Position numbers and translations under genes: made by a program
The notes under the pieces: generated by a model
The model's input: the letters and a program-made list of their open reading frames with translations, nothing else
What the model was told of the DNA's origin: nothing
Database searches by the model: none
From: a virus
Virus record (IMG/VR): IMGVR_UViG_3300034104_003795
Span: 90,370-154,369 of that record
Reading direction: 5' to 3' (one strand)
Length of the DNA stretch: 64,000 bases
Shown here: positions 3,948 to 39,156 of the stretch, piece by piece
How the letters are laid out: every line of letters starts with the position of its first letter
How positions within the stretch are numbered: position 1 is the stretch's first letter

Positions 3948-4592
3948 TTATTTTATTAGGTTGTGTTTAACCAATTGTTTAAATATATATTCCGATACTT
4001 TTCTATCAGATGGATAGTGTAATCCACTTAATTCTCTTGCTCTCTTTATCTCGTGATAAAAATCATCAAGCTCTTCCGCTAATGCTGGATTCATCTTTCC
4101 AAAGTGATAAAGTATAACTAAAAAATCCATTGTGTGTCCAGATGGATATGCTGCCGAATTTGCATCAGTAGCGGTAATCGGATGTAAATCCAATCTTAAC
4201 TCTTTAGCTAATTGATAAGGTCTTGGACGATTGAATTTATCCTTTAAGTAAAACGTTATAGGGTCTATATCACCAACCCATTTTAGAATTTCTTCTTTAC
4301 TCACATCTAATCCCAATTTCTTTGCTACAATAACAAAAAAATCATAGTGATTTGTTTCTATCAACTTACAAAAACGGATATCATCTTCATCTGCGTTATT
4401 AGTTATCTTTGTAAGATATTCTAATTCGTTTTTTGTTTCATCAGATGAGTTAGCTGGAAATGGATGATTTTCTAATACATCTTTGATAATACCAGTTTCA
4501 ATAGCAGCCTTTAATATACCGGCTCTATCCTCTTTAACTTTAGCTTCTTGCTCTCTAGTTGTATTACCATATTTAATATCATCCAAATTCAT
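3948..4592 (-). CDS. PAP2-superfamily phosphatase
   Basis: 214 aa. The three PAP2/acid phosphatase motifs are present in order: KDKFNRPRP (K-x6-RP type, ~117-125), YPSGHT (~148-153) and ARELSGLHYPSD (R-x5-H-x3-D, ~187-198). The family removes phosphate from lipids, nucleotides or sugars through a phospho-His intermediate. There is no strong membrane segment, so it resembles soluble class A acid phosphatases or vanadium-haloperoxidase-fold phosphatases rather than the lipid type. Its start overlaps the SpeD-like stop by one base, suggesting coupled translation. The substrate is unknown. Confidence 0.8.
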   Translation of the reverse strand: MNLDDIKYGNTTREQEAKVKEDRAGILKAAIETGIIKDVLENHPFPANSSDETKNELEYLTKITNNADEDDIRFCKLIETNHYDFFVIVAKKLGLDVSKEEILKWVGDIDPITFYLKDKFNRPRPYQLAKELRLDLHPITATDANSAAYPSGHTMDFLVILYHFGKMNPALAEELDDFYHEIKRARELSGLHYPSDRKVSEYIFKQLVKHNLIK

Positions 4593-5032
4593 TAAACCTG
4601 CTTTCTTTTAAATATATCTATTATTTGTTTTATCTTACTTTTCTTAAAGTGTCCAGAATCAATCACTTTAAAATTATTCCCGTTTCTGTCAATAAATTGC
4701 CAATGAGCTTCGGTTAATCCAAACCAATCGTCTAAATGATTTAAAACATCTTTTGGTTTAAAATTTGAACAACTATATAAATCAAACTGAAACATCGCTG
4801 GGTTTTCATTATCCCAAACGTGAATTGATGCGTGTGATGTAGCTAATGTAACAGTTCCGGTTATCCCTTCGTTACCCGGTTCATTAACATAAACCGAAGT
4901 GGGGCCGGCTACTACTTTCATTCCCACATTTTGTACTAATTGTGTAAACCAGATGTTTAACACTTTGTCTGTTTTTGGTGGAGTCTTTACATAACCCTTT
5001 ACCAAAAGATGAAGATGGTTTGGTACGAACAT
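4592..5032 (-). CDS. S-adenosylmethionine decarboxylase-like protein (SpeD family)
   Basis: 146 aa. Around residues 60-90 the sequence LATSHASIHVWDNE...DLYSC follows the AdoMet decarboxylase pattern ESH-x-SIHTWPE...DVFTC. Ser66 is the candidate pyruvoyl-forming residue, and His71 and Cys88 sit at the expected catalytic spacings (+5 and about +20). The Glu before the Ser is Thr here. The family makes decarboxylated AdoMet for spermidine, which could help neutralise packaged DNA. No spermidine synthase is in the window. The start is preceded by motif B. Confidence 0.75.
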   Translation of the reverse strand: MFVPNHLHLLVKGYVKTPPKTDKVLNIWFTQLVQNVGMKVVAGPTSVYVNEPGNEGITGTVTLATSHASIHVWDNENPAMFQFDLYSCSNFKPKDVLNHLDDWFGLTEAHWQFIDRNGNNFKVIDSGHFKKSKIKQIIDIFKRKQV

Positions 5033-5069: not shown

Positions 5070-5444
5070 TTAAATATTTTTAGGTTTTCTTCCTCTTTTT
5101 TTCTTTGGTTTTGGATTATCTTTCTCATTTTGCAGTTTAAGTATTTCTGCACATTTTTCATATTCCTCAACTTCAATATAATAATCCATCATTTTCTTTA
5201 ATGTTAAATCTATATCATCTTTTGATATTATAAAATCAACATTAATAGGTGGTTCAAATGTTCGTGGTGTTTTTGGTTTTTGTGCCAATTTAGGAGTAAC
5301 TTGTAATATAACTCTATCATCTTCATCTGATTGAAGAAAATCAAATACGTTAGAGTATATCGAATCCATTATCACTCCCTTATTCGCATCTGCCCATTGT
5401 TCTATGGGAGTGCCAAAATCTATGTATATTCTTTTTGGTGTCAT
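5070..5444 (-). CDS. Hypothetical protein with AT-hook-like basic tail
   Basis: 124 aa. A helical segment near 85-105 (MMDYYIEVEEYEKCAEIL) resembles the helical-hairpin pattern of UvrB/UvrC-motif proteins. The C-terminus KKKRGRKPKNI contains the RGRKP core of an AT-hook, suggesting contact with A/T-rich DNA minor groove. Its start overlaps the bilin reductase stop by 4 bp (ATGA type). Function unknown. Confidence 0.6.
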   Translation of the reverse strand: MTPKRIYIDFGTPIEQWADANKGVIMDSIYSNVFDFLQSDEDDRVILQVTPKLAQKPKTPRTFEPPINVDFIISKDDIDLTLKKMMDYYIEVEEYEKCAEILKLQNEKDNPKPKKKRGRKPKNI

Positions 5445-6070
5445 ATCTTTGGGAATAATATGTTTTCCATAAAATACTTTGCTTTTTCCTCACCAATTAG
5501 TGCTTTCAATGCTGAAAACGTTCTTGGGTTAGTAGCCTGTATTTGACAATAAATATTTTGTTTCTCTATTACACCTTCAATATTATCGGTTTTCTTTTCC
5601 AACCAAAGAAGTGAATTAAGATACCAATCGTATTTTTCCACTACCCAATTACAAAAACGAACCAATTCCTCATCGGATTCCGGTTTTAACATAATAAATC
5701 TATCGGAAAAAACAGTAGCCCATTCAGGTATCTTTTTTCTTTGTTTAAAATCCATACCATCATCAAAAGGATATGTTTTAAGACCAGGACTCAAATCCAT
5801 ATATGCACCCGTTACCATTTTTTCAGTTGATATAACATCAAATCCAAAAATAGGCTCTGGTGAATCTTTATGTGGGAATGTTGTAAAGTGTAGTACTTCT
5901 ATTTTACCATCACCATATCTTTCCACGTGAGCCATACGAAATAACTTTGATTCATATCTAAAATTATCCCATCCATAATCTTCGGTTTCTAATGGTTGGC
6001 AATTAGGCGCCTTCTCCACCATCTCCTTCAACGTCCACGCTAGCTGATTCAGATACTCTTTGTAATTCAT
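5441..6070 (-). CDS. Ferredoxin-dependent bilin reductase (PcyA/PcyX/PebS family)
   Basis: 209 aa, near the family's ~230. Family signatures occur in order: LFRMAHVERYG (~43-53), IEVLHFTTFP (~57-66), PIFGFDVI (~73-80) and AYMDLSP (~89-95). Glu50, His61 and Asp78 align by spacing with the catalytic Glu76, His88 and Asp105 of PcyA. The enzyme reduces biliverdin with electrons from ferredoxin; which bilin it makes cannot be read from sequence. The preceding gene encodes heme oxygenase and overlaps it, so the pair forms a heme-to-bilin route. The overlap is 68 bp from the first ATG, or 20 bp if Met17 (6022) is the start. Marine phages carry pebS, pcyA and pcyX; a Bacteroidota phage setting is unusual. 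Confidence 0.85.
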   Translation of the reverse strand: MNYKEYLNQLAWTLKEMVEKAPNCQPLETEDYGWDNFRYESKLFRMAHVERYGDGKIEVLHFTTFPHKDSPEPIFGFDVISTEKMVTGAYMDLSPGLKTYPFDDGMDFKQRKKIPEWATVFSDRFIMLKPESDEELVRFCNWVVEKYDWYLNSLLWLEKKTDNIEGVIEKQNIYCQIQATNPRTFSALKALIGEEKAKYFMENILFPKI

Positions 6071-6566
6071 CTAATATAGTTATGTTGTAATCCAATGCTT
6101 TGTTTGCTTCATCTGCCCATTCATCTTTTTGAATTGCTCTAATCGTTCCGGCAATTTCTCTAACATCACCCTCAAACTCATACATCTTACCACTTCCAGG
6201 TACATTCTTTTTCATCATCTGCCCACCAAACATAATTGCTAAGTAGTTTAGGTAAACGTGTGGAAGTATTTCTTCTTTACTCAATGTACGAAGGTATTTA
6301 CGATATTCATTCGTTGCTACCAATGGTGTAATTTGAATTTGAGTTTCTCCCATCAATTCTTTAATGTCCTCAAATACCTTACCAGCTCTATCTAAAGCTG
6401 GGTGTGGTAATTCATGTACTTCAATTGCATCAAATATTGCCAATTGCTGACACAAATACAAAATGTATTCTTCGTTTGATAATTCTCCTTTAAACATTCT
6501 TTGATTAAATGTCATCTTTTCTGCCAAAGAGTGCTTTTCAGCTATGGCTTCTTTTAATGGTAACAT
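6003..6566 (-). CDS. Heme oxygenase (biliverdin-producing, HO-1 type)
   Basis: 187 aa. The N-terminus LKEAIAEKHSLAE matches the heme oxygenase proximal-helix pattern, with His12 as the candidate axial heme ligand. The distal helix region carries HVYLNYLAIMFGGQ (~103-117), corresponding to YLGDLSGGQ in known enzymes with the GGQ kept. It opens heme to biliverdin, iron and CO using O2 and ferredoxin electrons. The C-terminus is acidic and Gly-rich (~170-187). The overlap with the downstream bilin reductase gene implies translational coupling, as in viral ho1-pcyX/pebS pairs. Confidence 0.85.
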   Translation of the reverse strand: MLPLKEAIAEKHSLAEKMTFNQRMFKGELSNEEYILYLCQQLAIFDAIEVHELPHPALDRAGKVFEDIKELMGETQIQITPLVATNEYRKYLRTLSKEEILPHVYLNYLAIMFGGQMMKKNVPGSGKMYEFEGDVREIAGTIRAIQKDEWADEANKALDYNITILDELQRVSESASVDVEGDGGEGA

Positions 6567-13254: not shown

Positions 13255-13437
13255 TTATTGTTTAGGACTCGTTTTTTTGACCTCTTTTATACCCGCTGCC
13301 CATTTTCTTTTTAATCTAAAAAATATGTAATTAAAAATTAAGTATGTATTCCAAACAATAGCTACAATTATACCAATAGCAATTATCGGTAACATAATTA
13401 GATAGGTCAATAATTTAATCAGTATATTTTTTATCAT
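13255..13437 (-). CDS. Small single-pass membrane protein, 60 aa
   Basis: One long hydrophobic segment (residues ~8-36), then a basic tail ([15 protein letters not shown]), giving an N-out/C-in prediction. It overlaps the IscA stop by 4 bp, so it is coupled to that gene. Function unknown. Confidence 0.6.
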
Positions 13438-13766
13438 AGGGAGAATGATTCACCACATCCACAGGTTCTACTAGCGTTTGGATTTTCCCATTGGAATCCT
13501 TTACCATTTAATCCATCTGAATATGTTAATTGAGTACCATAAAGATATAGTAAACTCTTTCTATCAATTACTACTTTCAATCCACCATCCACCTGAACTA
13601 CTTCATCGGTTGGTTCTATCTTATCATCAAAATCCATTGTGTAAGATAATCCACTACACCCACCACCCTTCACACCAACTCGTAAGTTATGCGTATCAGG
13701 TGTTAAACCACCTTCCACCATTAATTCAATTACATGCTCTAATGCTTTAGGTTGTAGTGTTACCAT
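13434..13766 (-). CDS. A-type Fe-S cluster assembly protein (IscA/ErpA/SufA family)
   Basis: 110 aa, the full family length. The three conserved cysteines are Cys37 (GGGCSGL) and Cys102/Cys104 (TCGCGESF), the cluster- or iron-binding triad. The family carries Fe-S clusters from a scaffold to target proteins. The IscU-like scaffold gene lies 0.5 kb upstream in the same operon, so the phage brings both steps. No cysteine desulfurase is in the window, so sulfur would have to come from the host. Confidence 0.9.
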
Positions 13767-28575: not shown

Positions 28576-28951
28576 TTTTATCTACGTTGTAAACAATTAT
28601 ATCGCCATTTGTATCTATATAGCCTTGTCTAATACCTGTACCACTTATAGCTTCAATATCAGTTGGTGGTTGGTGATATATAACTTCATACCCTACACCT
28701 CTACCATAGTTTACACTTTCAATATCAGGAATAATACTGATTAGGATTCTATCTATGTTTTCTTGAAAGAATGGTTCTTCCATTAAATCCATCATAACTC
28801 TATGGGCTGATTTTGGATTTTTCTCATCGGTTTCAACATCTCTAATTGCTACCCAAACATTTTTACCCTTTGTTAATTGTTGATTAATTAACCACTCATG
28901 TCCTTTATGCCATGTCTGCCATCTTCCGATGAATAATGCATATTTTTTCAT
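28544..28951 (-). CDS. Nucleotidyltransferase of the NMNAT/cytidylyltransferase fold
   Basis: 135 aa. FIGRWQTWHKGHEWLI contains the HxGH nucleotide-binding motif (His15-His18), and the ISGTGIR near 104 is the second signature. This short form resembles phage NadM/NMNAT-like adenylyltransferases that make NAD, or a related nucleotidylyl transfer enzyme. The preferred substrate is not certain. Confidence 0.8.
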   Translation of the reverse strand: MKKYALFIGRWQTWHKGHEWLINQQLTKGKNVWVAIRDVETDEKNPKSAHRVMMDLMEEPFFQENIDRILISIIPDIESVNYGRGVGYEVIYHQPPTDIEAISGTGIRQGYIDTNGDIIVYNVDKNDSTAKETHS

Positions 28952-28953
28952 AA

Positions 28954-29253
28954 CTACTTATTTGAATTATTTTGTTCTTGTTCTAATTTTTTCGCTCTTT
29001 CGTATTGGTATCTAGCTTGAAAATACTCATTATCTATACGATTCCATTTTCCAGCTGGACATGCACCATTTACGGGTGAATATATTTTTCCTTTTAAAGC
29101 ACATCCACATAATCCACAGTGAATTACAGGTGAAGTTTTTTTATTCTCACACCCATCACATACTTCCATTCTTTTAGCAGCTAAATCAACTTGTTTATCA
29201 TCTGGGTTAAAAGCAATACCCCACGCTTTAAATATTTCAACTATTTTATTCAT
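28954..29253 (-). CDS. Zinc-ribbon protein, 99 aa
   Basis: CDGCENKK, CGLCGC and CPAGKW give three Cys clusters (~32-65) that would form one or two zinc sites. A helical, Gln/Glu-rich tail follows. It resembles small phage zinc-ribbon proteins ending CPxGKW. It lies 1-2 bp from both neighbours in the APS-kinase operon. Function unknown. Confidence 0.6.
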   Translation of the reverse strand: MNKIVEIFKAWGIAFNPDDKQVDLAAKRMEVCDGCENKKTSPVIHCGLCGCALKGKIYSPVNGACPAGKWNRIDNEYFQARYQYERAKKLEQEQNNSNK

Positions 29254-29254
29254 A

Positions 29255-29725
29255 TTATAACTTATTTGTATCTTTCAAAAAATGTATTAATTTGGTGAAA
29301 GATTGTATTGGAGTTTCCGATGTAGTATTCATATCAAAAAAATTCACTTCAGGTGCTTCATACTCCTGTACTTTGAATTCTTCTCTACCTCTTTTACGAG
29401 TTGTGTGTACATATATTTCAACAATATTCTCTCCACATTCAGTTTTAAATTCTTCTCTTAATTCCTTGTACGGCGATACCAATGATACAACAACATCACA
29501 TCCTTTTGCATTTAAGAAAAAAGCAATTAATTGTGCGTTCTTTATATTTTGCACTCTACCTGTTTCTGAATAATCTTTGTTAAGTGTCAATTCTCTCAAA
29601 TCATCACCGTCAATGTGAAATACGTCTTTTCTCCAATTACGTTTTTCAGTTTGAAGAAATTCTCTAAGTTTTGTAGCCTGAATAGTTTTTCCGGCACCCG
29701 GTTGTCCTGTAAACCAATATATCAT
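29255..29725 (-). CDS. cysC: Adenylylsulfate (APS) kinase-like protein
   Basis: 156 aa, slightly shorter than cellular CysC. Walker A GQPGAGKT (~7-14), HIDGDDLRE (~38-46), a NIKNAQLIAFFLNAKGCDV segment matching the N...A......G core, and SLVSPY (~83-88) all fit. It phosphorylates APS to PAPS, the sulfate donor. The sulfotransferase at 21947 would use PAPS, so together they could sulfate a phage or host glycan. No ATP sulfurylase is in the window. Confidence 0.85.
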   Translation of the reverse strand: MIYWFTGQPGAGKTIQATKLREFLQTEKRNWRKDVFHIDGDDLRELTLNKDYSETGRVQNIKNAQLIAFFLNAKGCDVVVSLVSPYKELREEFKTECGENIVEIYVHTTRKRGREEFKVQEYEAPEVNFFDMNTTSETPIQSFTKLIHFLKDTNKL

Positions 29726-29740
29726 AACTTCCTTTTAGAA

Positions 29741-29752
29741 ATAAGTATATTG
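29741..29752 (-). promoter_or_regulatory. TATACTTAT element (motif B)
   Basis: The minus strand reads ATATACTTAT, 16 bp before the APS kinase start and just after the bS21 stop. Confidence 0.35.
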
Positions 29753-29753
29753 A

Positions 29754-30020
29754 TTAAAAATTATTTGATTTTTTTGTCTTTCCGCTTAATGCAGATGATG
29801 GCAAAATTCCAGCAGCTATTTTATCCAATATAACATCTCTCTGGCTCCTTCTAATAGCTTTTTGCTTTTGTTCCCTTTTTTCAGTTGTAGGTTTTGTGTA
29901 TTCTTTTCGGTCTCTCAATTCCATAATGTGACCGGATTTGATTACCTTTCTTTTGAATTCCTTTAGAGCCTTATTGATATCCTGTTTTGTACAGTCTACT
30001 ATAACGATTGATACACCCAT
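29754..30020 (-). CDS. rpsU: Ribosomal protein bS21-like
   Basis: 88 aa. The N-terminal half follows bS21: INKALKEFKRKVIKSG, then ELRDRKEYTKPTTEKREQKQ with the Y-x-KPTTE-x-R block, then a basic helix. The C-terminal ~20 residues are phage-specific. bS21 sits at the mRNA exit near the anti-Shine-Dalgarno sequence of 16S rRNA. In Bacteroidota, host bS21 helps sequester that sequence, and large phages often encode their own. It could shift ribosomes towards phage messages. Confidence 0.9.
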   Translation of the reverse strand: MGVSIVIVDCTKQDINKALKEFKRKVIKSGHIMELRDRKEYTKPTTEKREQKQKAIRRSQRDVILDKIAAGILPSSALSGKTKKSNNF

Positions 30021-30021
30021 A

Positions 30022-30738
30022 TTATGAATTTTTTAGTTGTTGTAATGCGTCTTTATACAATAAACTATCTTTACTATGTGAAAGTGCAGAAGCTAATTTT
30101 ATTTTTTTGTTTGTTGAGGGATTAAGTATAGTTTTATTTAAGATATTTTTTTTTTCTTCAGGTGATTTTTTAAAAAAATCATGCCAAATTTTAGATGAAT
30201 ATCCGTATTCTTTAATTGGATTTATAGACTCGTTTGTTTTAATATGTTGTATTTTTTGTTTTACATTTGGATATGCTTTAAGTCTTTTTCTAACCGCTTC
30301 TACATTTTTAAGAGAATCATCTACAAAGAATACATCATCGTATCCTTCATCTTTTACTTTTGCTTCTATCCAATCTGCTTTCTTTTCTGGGTTAGCATCA
30401 CCCAATGCAACTACATACAAATTACGAATTCCCAAATCTTTGATAAATTTATGAATTGGTTTATATGCAGAACGTGCAGTTAAAATATAAATTGTTCTAC
30501 CACTATTAGATGCTGACATTCTTTTCAGTAATTCAACATATCCTTTGATTAATTTAGGTTGATTTATTTTTTGAAAATCAGAATAATCAAAAACATCACC
30601 AGGTTTTTCAGTATAAACCGCATATTCACCGGGAGTTAGTGTTGATTTTTTTCCGTCTTTATGAGTTACATATATAAAAGAAGTTGTTTTGACAAGTGTA
30701 TCGTCAAAATCAAATACTCTTAATTTTTTATTTTCCAT
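30022..30738 (-). CDS. HAD-family phosphatase with a C-terminal motif domain
   Basis: 238 aa from ATG at 30738; an in-frame ATG at 30762 is possible. LRVFDFDDTLVKT holds the DxD motif, TIYILTARS (~85-93) motif II, and DVFFVDDSLKN the acidic motif IV, as in phage polynucleotide phosphatase-like HAD proteins. The C-terminal ~40 residues (ILNKTILNPSTNKKIKLASAL) are closely related to the C-terminus of the unrelated protein at 2704-3429. It starts 22 bp after the upstream stop. Confidence 0.75.
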   Translation of the reverse strand: MENKKLRVFDFDDTLVKTTSFIYVTHKDGKKSTLTPGEYAVYTEKPGDVFDYSDFQKINQPKLIKGYVELLKRMSASNSGRTIYILTARSAYKPIHKFIKDLGIRNLYVVALGDANPEKKADWIEAKVKDEGYDDVFFVDDSLKNVEAVRKRLKAYPNVKQKIQHIKTNESINPIKEYGYSSKIWHDFFKKSPEEKKNILNKTILNPSTNKKIKLASALSHSKDSLLYKDALQQLKNS

Positions 30739-30761
30739 AAATAATGTTCTTGATATTGGCA

Positions 30762-31076
30762 TTATCCGTTAAGTTGTCTTTTAGCCTTTGGAAGTGCTTT
30801 TTCCAATTTATCGTTTTCTCTAGTTAGATACTCAACTTTTACAGTCAATTCTGCAACTTTTGCTGTCATATCTATAATCATCTTACGCATTTCATCTTTC
30901 TCCTTTGATGATGCTACTAAAAGGGCTTCTAATTTAGAAATTCTATCTCTACAATCGTGTCTGATAAATTCCTCATCTCTTTCTTTTCTGATTGATTTCT
31001 TCTCATAGAAACGAAATGCTGCTGCACTACCCAATACCGTAATGGCCGTAATAAGTACTGAATATATATTTTCCAT
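30762..31076 (-). CDS. Membrane-anchored coiled-coil protein
   Basis: 104 aa from ATG at 31076, just past the upstream stop. A TM helix (~4-20) is followed by a charged coiled coil (~25-100) with regular Leu/Met heptads. The layout resembles i-spanins or inner-membrane tethers, but there is no defining motif. Confidence 0.55.
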   Translation of the reverse strand: MENIYSVLITAITVLGSAAAFRFYEKKSIRKERDEEFIRHDCRDRISKLEALLVASSKEKDEMRKMIIDMTAKVAELTVKVEYLTRENDKLEKALPKAKRQLNG

Positions 31077-31077
31077 A

Positions 31078-31407
31078 TTAGATTTCTTTTTGTGGTTCTT
31101 CTTCGGTTTGAGGTAACGCTGCTGCAACTCTTTCATTTCCCTTCTTATCAAAGTATTCTTTTACATACTTCAATTTCTTTTCCACATCAAGTATTTCATG
31201 ATAGTCCATATCCATAAGGTCATTTAGAATCATACCTCTATTTGCATTTTTATTAGCGGATACTACAATTGCCACTTGCTTTTTTGTTGAAGGAGTACCT
31301 TTATCATAATATTTCATAATAGCTTTAAGATGCATATCATTCTTACCCATCTCCTTTATGAAATTTTCTCTTACGATTTTTCTAATTGTATCTTTAATGT
31401 TTGCCAT
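31078..31407 (-). CDS. Hypothetical helical protein, 109 aa
   Basis: Starts MANIKDTIRKIVRENFIKEM, a pattern common to many phage structural or assembly proteins of unknown role. It has an all-alpha prediction and an acidic C-terminus. A motif-B element lies about 20 bp upstream. Function unknown. Confidence 0.55.
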   Translation of the reverse strand: MANIKDTIRKIVRENFIKEMGKNDMHLKAIMKYYDKGTPSTKKQVAIVVSANKNANRGMILNDLMDMDYHEILDVEKKLKYVKEYFDKKGNERVAAALPQTEEEPQKEI

Positions 31408-31424
31408 TTTTACCTAAAATTATA

Positions 31425-31439
31425 GATATAAATATACTT
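31425..31439 (-). promoter_or_regulatory. TATATTTATA element (motif B variant)
   Basis: The minus strand reads AAGTATATTTATATC between the glycosyltransferase stop at 31449 and the start at 31407, about 20 bp before the ATG. Confidence 0.4.
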
Positions 31440-31448
31440 TTTAAAGAA

Positions 31449-32327
31449 TTACCCTAAATTCAATATCCTTTTTGCAAATACTAACAACTCGTCTCTACCT
31501 AGAGCAAACGCCTTATCATAAAACTCTTTCTTCTTATCAATTCTTACAATCTTGTCTATAAAAGAAGGTTTATTATTAATATAGTCTTCGGTTATGTATA
31601 TACCATCAAGAAGAACCTGAACTATCTCATGCCCATATTTACGTGCAACATCAGTACAATTCATAGCGTATGTATCTTCTGGACCATAACCACCAAATGA
31701 ATCAGGAATTCCTGTGAAATTCCAAAAACTTCTTGAATATAAAGTATGCATACCACATCCAAATTTTGCAGATGGAACAATTCTAACCGATATATCACTT
31801 ACATCCTGTGTATATGCATTTTTTACAGCATCTTCACTATGTGCATATCCTAATCCTGTATTTAATAAATTTTTATGCACAATTACATCCCAACTATCAT
31901 CCCACCAACGAGGAATGGATGGTGATACTATATACATATTATTTAACTGATATGATAAATTTAATTGGTGTTTCAATAAATGTTCATGTAAAAGTATATC
32001 CGCATCGCAGAATATAAATTGGTCATAATATAATTTGATACTTTCTCTTTTTTGTTGAGTAGTTCCCCACAATGAATTATCGGTGATTATTTCATTTATA
32101 TTTTTTATACCATCAAATAGTGTATTAAATTTTTCAATAAAATAATCTTGTTTTAATTCACTAGCTTCCCAATCAGTTAATTCTGGATTTAAATTAAGAC
32201 TAACTTTCATTGTAAAGTTGTCATTTGCATCTAAATAAGAAAGAGCCTTACGATATTGTACCATAAACCTTTCAAGCATTTCAATTTCATGTGGCATCAC
32301 ATGCATACAAAATAAAGTAGTCTTCAT
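31449..32327 (-). CDS. Glycosyltransferase (GT-A-like)
   Basis: 292 aa. FIFCDADILLHE (~105-116) supplies the metal-binding DxD, and a GGYGPEDTYAMN acidic motif (~218-229) fits the second active-site region, as in chondroitin-polymerase/GT-A-like enzymes. It is the last gene of the large glycan operon and starts one base before the next gene's stop. Donor and acceptor unknown. Confidence 0.75.
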   Translation of the reverse strand: MKTTLFCMHVMPHEIEMLERFMVQYRKALSYLDANDNFTMKVSLNLNPELTDWEASELKQDYFIEKFNTLFDGIKNINEIITDNSLWGTTQQKRESIKLYYDQFIFCDADILLHEHLLKHQLNLSYQLNNMYIVSPSIPRWWDDSWDVIVHKNLLNTGLGYAHSEDAVKNAYTQDVSDISVRIVPSAKFGCGMHTLYSRSFWNFTGIPDSFGGYGPEDTYAMNCTDVARKYGHEIVQVLLDGIYITEDYINNKPSFIDKIVRIDKKKEFYDKAFALGRDELLVFAKRILNLG

Positions 32328-36979: not shown

Positions 36980-37973
36980 CTAATATCTTTTTAATTTTTT
37001 CCGCTGCTCTACCGTCTCCATATGGACAAGGTTTACAAATATACGAATTCTTTTCCAACTCACCAAATAATTCTTTAAGTTTAGTTGGTTCTTCGCACAT
37101 ATAAAGATGACCGGTTTTTATACCTTCAGGTCTTTCGGTTGTTTTTCTACACACAATTATTTTCTTATTAAAGAAAGAACCTTCTTCTTGCAATCCACCA
37201 CTATCGGTAACTACCAACTTACAATCTTTAAGAATATTAATCGTTTCATTGTGCGTTAAAGGTTCTACGATATTAATATTTGTTAGTAAATTCTTATGCT
37301 TTTGTACGTTTGGATTTGGATGAATCGGTAATACAAATTTGTATTGTGGATAATCAATTGCTAACTGATTAATTACATTAAACCATTCATCTAACCAATG
37401 ATGATTTTCTCTACGATGCATTGTTACTAGAATAGTATCACCATAACTACCTTTATCATACTTCATAAGATTATCCAATACAGTATTCCCAACTATATGG
37501 ATATCTCCTTTTACTCTTTCCGCATCTAAATTTTCAGCAGAAAGCTGTGTTGGTGCAAAATTAATATCTGCTAAACGAGCTATCATCTGTCTATATCCTT
37601 CTTCAGGATATGGGTTTTCTAAATCGTAACTCCTTAACCCAGCTTCCATATAATATATCTTAATACCTCTATGATAAGCTGCTAATGCACATGCAAAAGC
37701 GGAAGCCGTATCGCCTTGCACCAACACACCTCTAAATTTGTAATTTGGAAAATATTCCATACAACTAATCATAATAGAATCTAATCTAGTATAACGAAAG
37801 GATTCTTTTATATTAACTCTAAAATCAACTTTTACATCCGAAAGTAAATCTTCATGTTGACCTGTGAATAAAAGTTTATATTCTTTCTTATCCATAATAT
37901 CAATCAATGGTTTTACTTTCAACCATTCTGGTCTAGTACCAAAACATATTAATATTGGGTCTTTCTTATTCAT
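36969..37973 (-). CDS. wecB: UDP-N-acetylglucosamine 2-epimerase (WecB type)
   Basis: 334 aa. CFGTRPEWLKVKPLI (~10-24) is the family start; later GDTASAFACALAAYHRGI, EAGLRSYDLENPYPEEGYRQ (with the catalytic Glu and Arg) and TDSGGLQEEGSFFNKK complete the GT-B-like fold. It converts UDP-GlcNAc to UDP-ManNAc. The overlap with the RuBisCO-like gene (8 bp) links the two in one translation unit. Slightly shorter than the usual 370. Confidence 0.88.
   Translation of the reverse strand: MNKKDPILICFGTRPEWLKVKPLIDIMDKKEYKLLFTGQHEDLLSDVKVDFRVNIKESFRYTRLDSIMISCMEYFPNYKFRGVLVQGDTASAFACALAAYHRGIKIYYMEAGLRSYDLENPYPEEGYRQMIARLADINFAPTQLSAENLDAERVKGDIHIVGNTVLDNLMKYDKGSYGDTILVTMHRRENHHWLDEWFNVINQLAIDYPQYKFVLPIHPNPNVQKHKNLLTNINIVEPLTHNETINILKDCKLVVTDSGGLQEEGSFFNKKIIVCRKTTERPEGIKTGHLYMCEEPTKLKELFGELEKNSYICKPCPYGDGRAAEKIKKILDAE
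37036..37067 (-). promoter_or_regulatory. Internal Bacteroidota-type promoter within wecB
   Basis: TTTG (37067-37064), 20-nt spacer ending TTCG, TATATTTG (37043-37036), a perfect match to the window's consensus although inside a coding sequence. It would boost expression of the genes from 36979 leftwards. Confidence 0.55.
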
Positions 37974-39156
37974 TTTTATTTACTCCCCATTTTTGAATTG
38001 CTTTATTGTATTCTCTACCATATTCTTTATCTATACTCTGCCTCATAGCTTTTGCACCAGCCAAAGTACCATCAGGATGCCCATGAAGTGCACCACCAAC
38101 ATTTGCCATATAATCAATACCAACTTTATCAGTTACCCATTGAGTAAGACCAGGATGGAAACCACAGCTTAATGCCGGCATTACACCATATTGGTGCAAT
38201 ACTTTCATTGAATCAATTACCTCATCTTCAGGCCATTTGTAATATCCACCAATCATTCCGGCGTGAATAAAATCAACACCCATCATACCTGCTAACTTAC
38301 AAATTACCGTCCAATCAATATAATAAGCGTGATTTCTATTGGTTAGAATTTTATCACCACTTTTTTGAAAATGTACAAATATTGGTAAGTCTAATTCTCT
38401 TACAGCCTTATAAACCCCCATACCACACCAAAAATTAATATGAACACCATTACCACCCAACTCATATACTCTCTTTACTCTATCTAAAATATGTGGATAA
38501 TCTGAATGAATAGATACACAATAAACTACATTTTTATCTTTTAAATATTCTGCAATCAATGGTACTCTTTCTTCAATTGTACAAAAAGCGGGATTACTCA
38601 TAATCTCATCTTCTTTAATGAAATTAACGCCACCTTCTACTAATTCTTTAACCATCTCTAATAATGTCTGCGGAGTGATACCAATTTTAGGTTTCACAAT
38701 TGCACCAAACAACGGTTTATCAAATGTTTTAGTGTATTCTCTAATACCTTTAATACCAAATTTAGGTCCTAAAAATAAATCTTCAATATGTTGTGGAAAC
38801 CAGATATCTTTAACAGCACATTTTGTAATATTATCAATATCCATCTGCCCACCCATAATATTTACCAACAAATGTGCAATCCCATCCGTTTTAAAATCAA
38901 TGTTTATAACAGGAAACGCTACCTTAACTAATCCATTATTAATAGATTTAAGCTCATCTTCATCTCCCAATACTAAACAACTATTTCTCTCAAATAGCTC
39001 ATCAGTTTCCCATTGATTTCTTACATTTGGATTACCTACACTTTGGCCTATTGCCAAATTCCAAGCGGCATCTCTTAAATTAGTTTCAGATGCCAAATCA
39101 TAAGTAACAATAAAGTACTTTTCTATATCTACTTCTTTTCTAAAAATATTTACCAT
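37966..39156 (-). CDS. RuBisCO-like protein (form IV)
   Basis: 396 aa, full RuBisCO large-chain length. Conserved: VKPKIGI with Lys155 (K175 equivalent); NFIKEDE with Lys181, Asp183 and Glu184 (carbamylated-lysine and Mg ligands K201, D203, E204); His262 (H294) and FIHAG His298 (H327); PALSCG Ser330 (S379); and GGALHGHPDG near the end. Missing: Arg295 (Phe263 here), His298 (Ser266), and the loop-6 Lys334 region (Tyr). So metal and enolate chemistry are likely retained but CO2 fixation on ribulose bisphosphate is not. Flanked by wecB and a cupin in the glycan operon, it probably rearranges or decarboxylates a phosphorylated sugar. Confidence 0.88.
   Translation of the reverse strand: MVNIFRKEVDIEKYFIVTYDLASETNLRDAAWNLAIGQSVGNPNVRNQWETDELFERNSCLVLGDEDELKSINNGLVKVAFPVINIDFKTDGIAHLLVNIMGGQMDIDNITKCAVKDIWFPQHIEDLFLGPKFGIKGIREYTKTFDKPLFGAIVKPKIGITPQTLLEMVKELVEGGVNFIKEDEIMSNPAFCTIEERVPLIAEYLKDKNVVYCVSIHSDYPHILDRVKRVYELGGNGVHINFWCGMGVYKAVRELDLPIFVHFQKSGDKILTNRNHAYYIDWTVICKLAGMMGVDFIHAGMIGGYYKWPEDEVIDSMKVLHQYGVMPALSCGFHPGLTQWVTDKVGIDYMANVGGALHGHPDGTLAGAKAMRQSIDKEYGREYNKAIQKWGVNKNE

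Follow-up and report, generated by a model that had tools for sequence, protein, structure and literature searches.

A heme oxygenase and bilin reductase gene pair forming a separate phage clade in a very probable Bacteroidota phage

What would a phage of a non-phototrophic bacterium do with two genes that lead from heme to a bilin? Cassettes of this kind are known from marine and freshwater phages, in which hemO is accompanied by either pcyX or pcyA, and what they are for in non-phototrophs has been called enigmatic (PMC11480375). The window, i.e., the whole stretch of 64,000 nucleotides that was analysed, sits in a 273,997-base virus record (hereafter G000) and raises this question again. 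The first-pass annotation, made from the letters alone, had placed a pair of a heme oxygenase (HO) and a ferredoxin-dependent bilin reductase (FDBR) at 5441-6566, which are exactly the limits of the following features:

5441..6070, minus strand: FDBR, 209 aa; PF05996, PcyA-type triad Glu50/His61/Asp78
6003..6566, minus strand: HO (heme oxygenase fold), 187 aa; PF01126; His12 and GGQ kept; N107/A110/I111
6003..6070, minus strand: overlap of the HO 3′ end with the FDBR 5′ end, 68 nt, from the open reading frames

The identity of the pair was borne out by the Pfam profiles, phmmer and the fold matches. Indeed, FDBR scored 80.7 bits against PF05996 (curated cut-off 31) and HO 56.5 bits against PF01126 (curated cut-off 23), which places both within their families, and the closest PDB sequences to FDBR in phmmer were PcyX 5owg (1.8e-19) and PcyA 2g18. 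The AlphaFold models, for which the input alignments consisted of viral relatives, had a mean pLDDT of 91 for FDBR and 92 for HO, with PcyA (TM 0.88) and heme oxygenase-1 (TM 0.80) as the respective top PDB fold matches; the first 37 Foldseek matches of the FDBR model were all FDBRs or PcyA-bearing complexes. The residues pointed out at first reading were also confirmed by alignment, namely His12 and GGQ in HO and a PcyA-type triad in FDBR, where Glu50, His61 and Asp78 align with Glu76, His88 and Asp105 of PcyA. The 68-nt overlap is real, since the N-terminal helix of FDBR (residues 3-19), which lies inside it, is predicted with a pLDDT of 97, and since HO followed by FDBR, overlapping or abutting (mostly -3 to -73 nt), recurs at nearly all loci of relatives that have both genes. 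The HO tail within the overlap is disordered in the model (pLDDT 45). With the overlap excluded, dN/dS was 0.04-0.15 for FDBR and 0.03-0.20 for HO, i.e., both genes are under purifying selection, and therefore the pair is not there by chance and is not a decaying hitchhiker. Judging from their sequences, the two enzymes look able to open heme and then to reduce the resulting bile pigment.

The host is very probably a member of the Bacteroidota, as had been proposed from the start, and this assignment is well supported by the terminase, the gene leaders and the promoters. The terminase shares 57.5% identity with that of Flavobacterium phages (isolation host Flavobacterium sp. LMO8) and 55% with that of phage Mel-JY01. 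Five-base Shine-Dalgarno sites occur in 6 of 166 genes; the leaders are rich in A and have T at -1. In the intergenic regions, read on the coding strand, we counted 24 TTG-N17-23-TANNTTTG promoters vs 3.6 +/- 2.1 expected from Markov shuffles (about sevenfold), and full E. coli-type promoter sites were absent from the same regions. For Bacteroidota, both missing Shine-Dalgarno sites and a -33/-7 TTTG/TANNTTTG promoter have been described (PMC6847099). Note that the promoter test was flat in leader samples, themselves short, of the Bacteroidota phages phiST and immuto, and therefore the absence of such promoters elsewhere means little. A cyanobacterial host, which the first-pass annotation had regarded as counter-evidence to its proposal, was rejected in view of the promoters, the leaders and the Flavobacterium-like terminase.

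Light harvesting in a cyanobacterial host, comparable to the use of pcyA and pebS by cyanophages, is accordingly hard to credit. It could be suggested by Mel-JY01, a core-genome relative deposited with the host Microcystis elabens, but the promoters and leaders are of the Bacteroidota type, the terminase of the Flavobacterium isolates is closer, photosynthesis genes were not noticed among the proteins listed for G000, and Mel-JY01 itself (PP395634.1, L026-L029) has 20 Bacteroidota-type TTG/TANNTTTG promoters in its leaders vs 0.8 expected. The core genes of Mel-JY01 resemble those of G000 and of Flavobacterium phages, and four-base Shine-Dalgarno sites are commoner in it than in G000; its recorded host may be wrong. 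In addition, G000 encodes, outside the window, a TonB-dependent receptor of 1086 aa (Plug, CarboxypepD_reg and OMP_b-brl_4; L014:9749-13009, i.e., G000 28749-32009, plus strand), which is not an assembly accident since relatives with 31-97% identity were found in 16 viral contigs.

Our trees place the window pair in a separate phage clade beside the PcyX clade, as a sister lineage to the phage pairs already known. In the FDBR tree, which was built without CB_2, alphaproteobacterial PcyA and pre-PcyA sequences, the phage HO-linked FDBRs are split from the distant cyanobacterial and cyanophage PcyA (100/99) and form three groups, each being one side of a branch: the window group with 25 rows (98/96), a second group of 6 rows (97/97) and a third of 41 rows that includes PcyX (99/96). 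The HO tree gave the same three groups (99/92, 95/86 and 99/98), and this agreement means that the pair was inherited together. Forcing the 8-row subclade of the window into the PcyX group cost 21 log-likelihood units and was rejected (p-AU 0.026). Thus, the phylogenetic check proposed with the first-pass annotation, in which a clade with PcyX was the expected support, left FDBR outside that clade.

The Glu/His/Asp triad was found in 20/20 window-side loci tabulated, with Glu throughout the window group, whereas in PcyX an Asp replaces PcyA Glu76 (PMC10151467, PMC11480375), i.e., Asp55 where the window FDBR has Glu50. This residue, together with the separate clades in both trees, rules out membership in PcyX. 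The triad and the fold are shared with cyanobacterial and cyanophage PcyA, but FDBR reached 97.3 bits with the NCBIfam PcyA equivalog model, below its cut-off of 206, and an adjoining HO was lacking in 5/5 cyanophage pcyA genes inspected. The pre-PcyA types (pre-1/2/3) are defined by the absence of His88 (Asn or Thr instead) and of Glu76 (PMC10151467), and FDBR has equivalents of both. In five other phage FDBRs (L070, L072, L075, L085 and L104), Ser or Cys stands in place of PcyA Glu76, and these are of neither PcyA nor PcyX type.

Among the closest known systems, the PcyX and HemO cassette of marine phages (Pelagibacter phage Mosig, PcyX_EBK42635) resembles the window pair in its overlapping HO then FDBR, in its occurrence in T4-like phages of non-phototrophs and in the His/Asp catalytic residues of PcyX. 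It differs in the Asp at the Glu76 position, in an HO that keeps the distal Asp (MGDLSGGQ) and in forming clades of its own in the FDBR and HO trees. The Mosig and window proteins share 33% identity for FDBR and 25% for HO. The vPcyA/X and vHemO of freshwater phage CB_2 are likewise a phage pair without the PcyX Asp and with a proposed non-phototrophic host, but they are reported from a broken cassette that contains alaS, and the CB_2 FDBR, which was not in our tree, groups between PcyX and PcyA (PMC11480375). The CB_2 enzyme makes phycocyanobilin in vitro (PMC11480375). Since the window group has Glu and not the PcyX Asp, and since the CB_2 enzyme without this Asp makes phycocyanobilin, we predict the same product for the window FDBR, with a chance slightly above even; caution is needed because Pro182 stands at the PcyA Asp220 position, where PcyX also has Pro.

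Phycoerythrobilin, which the first-pass annotation had named, beside other bilins, as a product that would support its proposal, is not supported, given the Glu where PcyX has Asp. A conversion of biliverdin to this product, as in the marine phage cassettes, would agree with the identical cassette architecture, the rank of PcyX as top PDB sequence match and the shared Pro, but Glu50, the two trees, which set the pair apart from the PcyX clade (including the p-AU obtained for the 8-row subclade), and the first place of PcyA in the fold search make it unlikely.

In the HO of this clade, the distal Asp of the classical enzyme and the Arg and Gly beside it are replaced, which was overlooked in the first-pass annotation. 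In our alignments, Asn107, Ala110 and Ile111 stand at Arg136, Gly139 and Asp140 of human HO-1, so that the distal Arg/Asp hydrogen-bond network is missing. These residues (with Ile or Leu at 111) are fixed or nearly so across the window group, in which the motif reads NYLA[IL]xxGGQ vs RHMGDLSGGQ or close to it in Mosig and nearly all PcyX-group HOs. H12, G114 and G115 are invariant in 42 sequences, and the proximal His, GGQ, R60, D67, Y88, R143 and the fold are conserved. The Arg/Asp pair of HO-1 bears a water network for proton delivery, and Asp140His lowers the activity of the human enzyme (PMC7948506). The network is not universal among active HOs, since plant HO-1 is without Arg and Asp (Ala149-His150), yet active and ferredoxin-dependent (PMC7948506). 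GmHO-1 thus shares with the window HO the missing Arg/Asp and the Ala at the Gly139 position, but it has His150 at the Asp position, where the window group has Ile or Leu. This His is polar and Ile/Leu are not, so that plant HO-1 is an imperfect precedent, and one for function rather than kinship.

Two readings of this replacement have to be weighed. On the one hand, HO may no longer be a true oxygenase and may act as a peroxidase or a heme/biliverdin chaperone, or open heme at another meso position, FDBR then using host biliverdin or an unusual product. The near fixation of N107/A110/Ile-Leu111 would fit, as would changes at HO-1 Gly139 and Asp140, which reportedly yield peroxidase activity according to titles cited in PMC5542595; nevertheless, the conserved residues and fold, the strict pairing with FDBR, which needs biliverdin, and the plant precedent make us doubt it. 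On the other hand, HO may be a working oxygenase with a changed relay, which we favour on sequence grounds because HO is kept with FDBR and is under selection. We would only tentatively extend this to a scheme in which HO dispenses with the distal Arg/Gly/Asp, either by means of a new proton relay or by yielding a different heme-opening product, and has co-evolved with a dedicated reductase that would make a bilin unlike those of PcyA or PcyX. The HO of this clade amounts to a natural experiment, in which a catalytic residue with a long history of study is replaced.

When viral contigs were scanned with the FDBR profile, at least 530 stretches encoding an FDBR were obtained, of which 80 were kept. 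Clustering of all genes within 5 kb, at 29 window-side and 48 other FDBR loci, recovered FDBR in 29/29 and 48/48 and HO in 29/29 and 45/48, and the commonest gene beyond them was found at 15 loci in all. HO and FDBR alone are thus common to almost all loci and form the unit, with no conserved third cassette gene. A standalone relative of HO was not obtained either, as the single new contig found also carries FDBR. Two peptide patterns, an insensitive means of search, were scanned against 84,980 species genomes and gave one match, a gene of PcyX type from a Neomarinimicrobiota MAG; the FDBR family was absent from 100 genomes drawn as relatives of this MAG, and a plasmid collection yielded no cellular source of the pair. 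Within the limits of the pattern scan, the phage HO-linked FDBR type looks largely confined to phages. Neither the clade nor HO/FDBR pairs tied to Bacteroidota phages were found in the open-access literature, to which the search was confined. In the Neomarinimicrobiota MAG (PBPT01000016.1), the PcyX-type FDBR and HO flank a 351-aa nitrilase/amidase-like gene, and the context looks phage-like. A further FDBR/HO set (L042, L051, L052 and L054-L063) belongs to phages with higher GC and more Shine-Dalgarno sites, and therefore with other hosts; at HO position 140 this set has Met, Trp, Tyr, Pro or Leu, and Asp in L052 only.

We then asked which partners the phage itself could provide. Neither plant-type ferredoxin or flavodoxin nor the phytochrome PHY domain was found in G000 and 25 relatives, and none of the 29 and 48 loci revealed a recurrent bilin-binding neighbour. 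Therefore, the electrons should come from the host, no bilin acceptor is carried by the phage, and the tuning of bacteriophytochromes, which was among the roles raised at first reading and lost ground here, would need host proteins. A bilin that loads host bacteriophytochromes and shifts the light responses of the infected cell would be in line with the CB_2 PcyA, from which phytochrome obtains a functional chromophore in E. coli, and with Bradyrhizobium ORS278, which couples hemO-pcyA-alaS with bphP (PMC11480375). However, the missing PHY domain and bilin-binding neighbour, and the host phytochromes that would be required across many hosts, render this role decidedly improbable.

Two iron-sulfur genes lie 7-8 kb from the pair in the window genome:

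14267..14677, minus strand: IscU-type Fe-S scaffold, about 8 kb upstream of the pair; TIGR01999 209 bits, cut-off 192.4
13434..13766, minus strand: A-type Fe-S carrier (IscA/ErpA/SufA type); TIGR00049 108 bits, cut-off 58.8

The two genes occur together in 8 of 9 close relatives, the ninth being a 60-kb fragment; IscU was mostly not seen farther out in the window group, where the contigs are partial. Fe-S cluster functions have been noted in the genomes of marine viruses (PMC5332604). IscU is a possible iron sink, and we infer its association with the pair, as well as that of the A-type carrier. The release of heme iron, also suggested in the first-pass annotation, thereby gained circumstantial support, in that the nearby genes fit, without proving, a supply of this iron to Fe-S assembly.

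Altogether, we read the pair as a heme-catabolism cassette for iron release in a T4-like jumbo phage of Bacteroidota, a reading to which we give an even chance. His12 of HO would bind host heme, and the enzyme, with O2 and electrons and despite the missing distal Asp, would open it to biliverdin, Fe2+ and CO. FDBR would take the biliverdin and carry out a four-electron reduction via host ferredoxin, most likely to phycocyanobilin since it has the Glu/His/Asp triad of PcyA, and by removing biliverdin, the tight-binding product of HO, it would pull HO forward. In a non-phototrophic host, the likely benefit would be the iron freed during infection, which could feed Fe-S assembly, the subclade also having IscU and the A-type carrier. 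An iron role was earlier proposed for phage HO/FDBR cassettes (PMC11480375), and a third lineage, tied to Bacteroidota, which has Fe-S assembly genes near and no partner among phytochromes or phycobiliproteins, makes the iron-supply idea testable.

Elsewhere in the window, an S-adenosylmethionine decarboxylase family protein is encoded downstream of the pair (4592-5032, minus strand). A nucleotide-sugar/glycosyltransferase cluster includes a RuBisCO-large-like protein (37966-39156, minus strand), which scored 114.8 bits against PF00016 and 178.8 bits against the rubisco_III model, far under the cut-off of 497.
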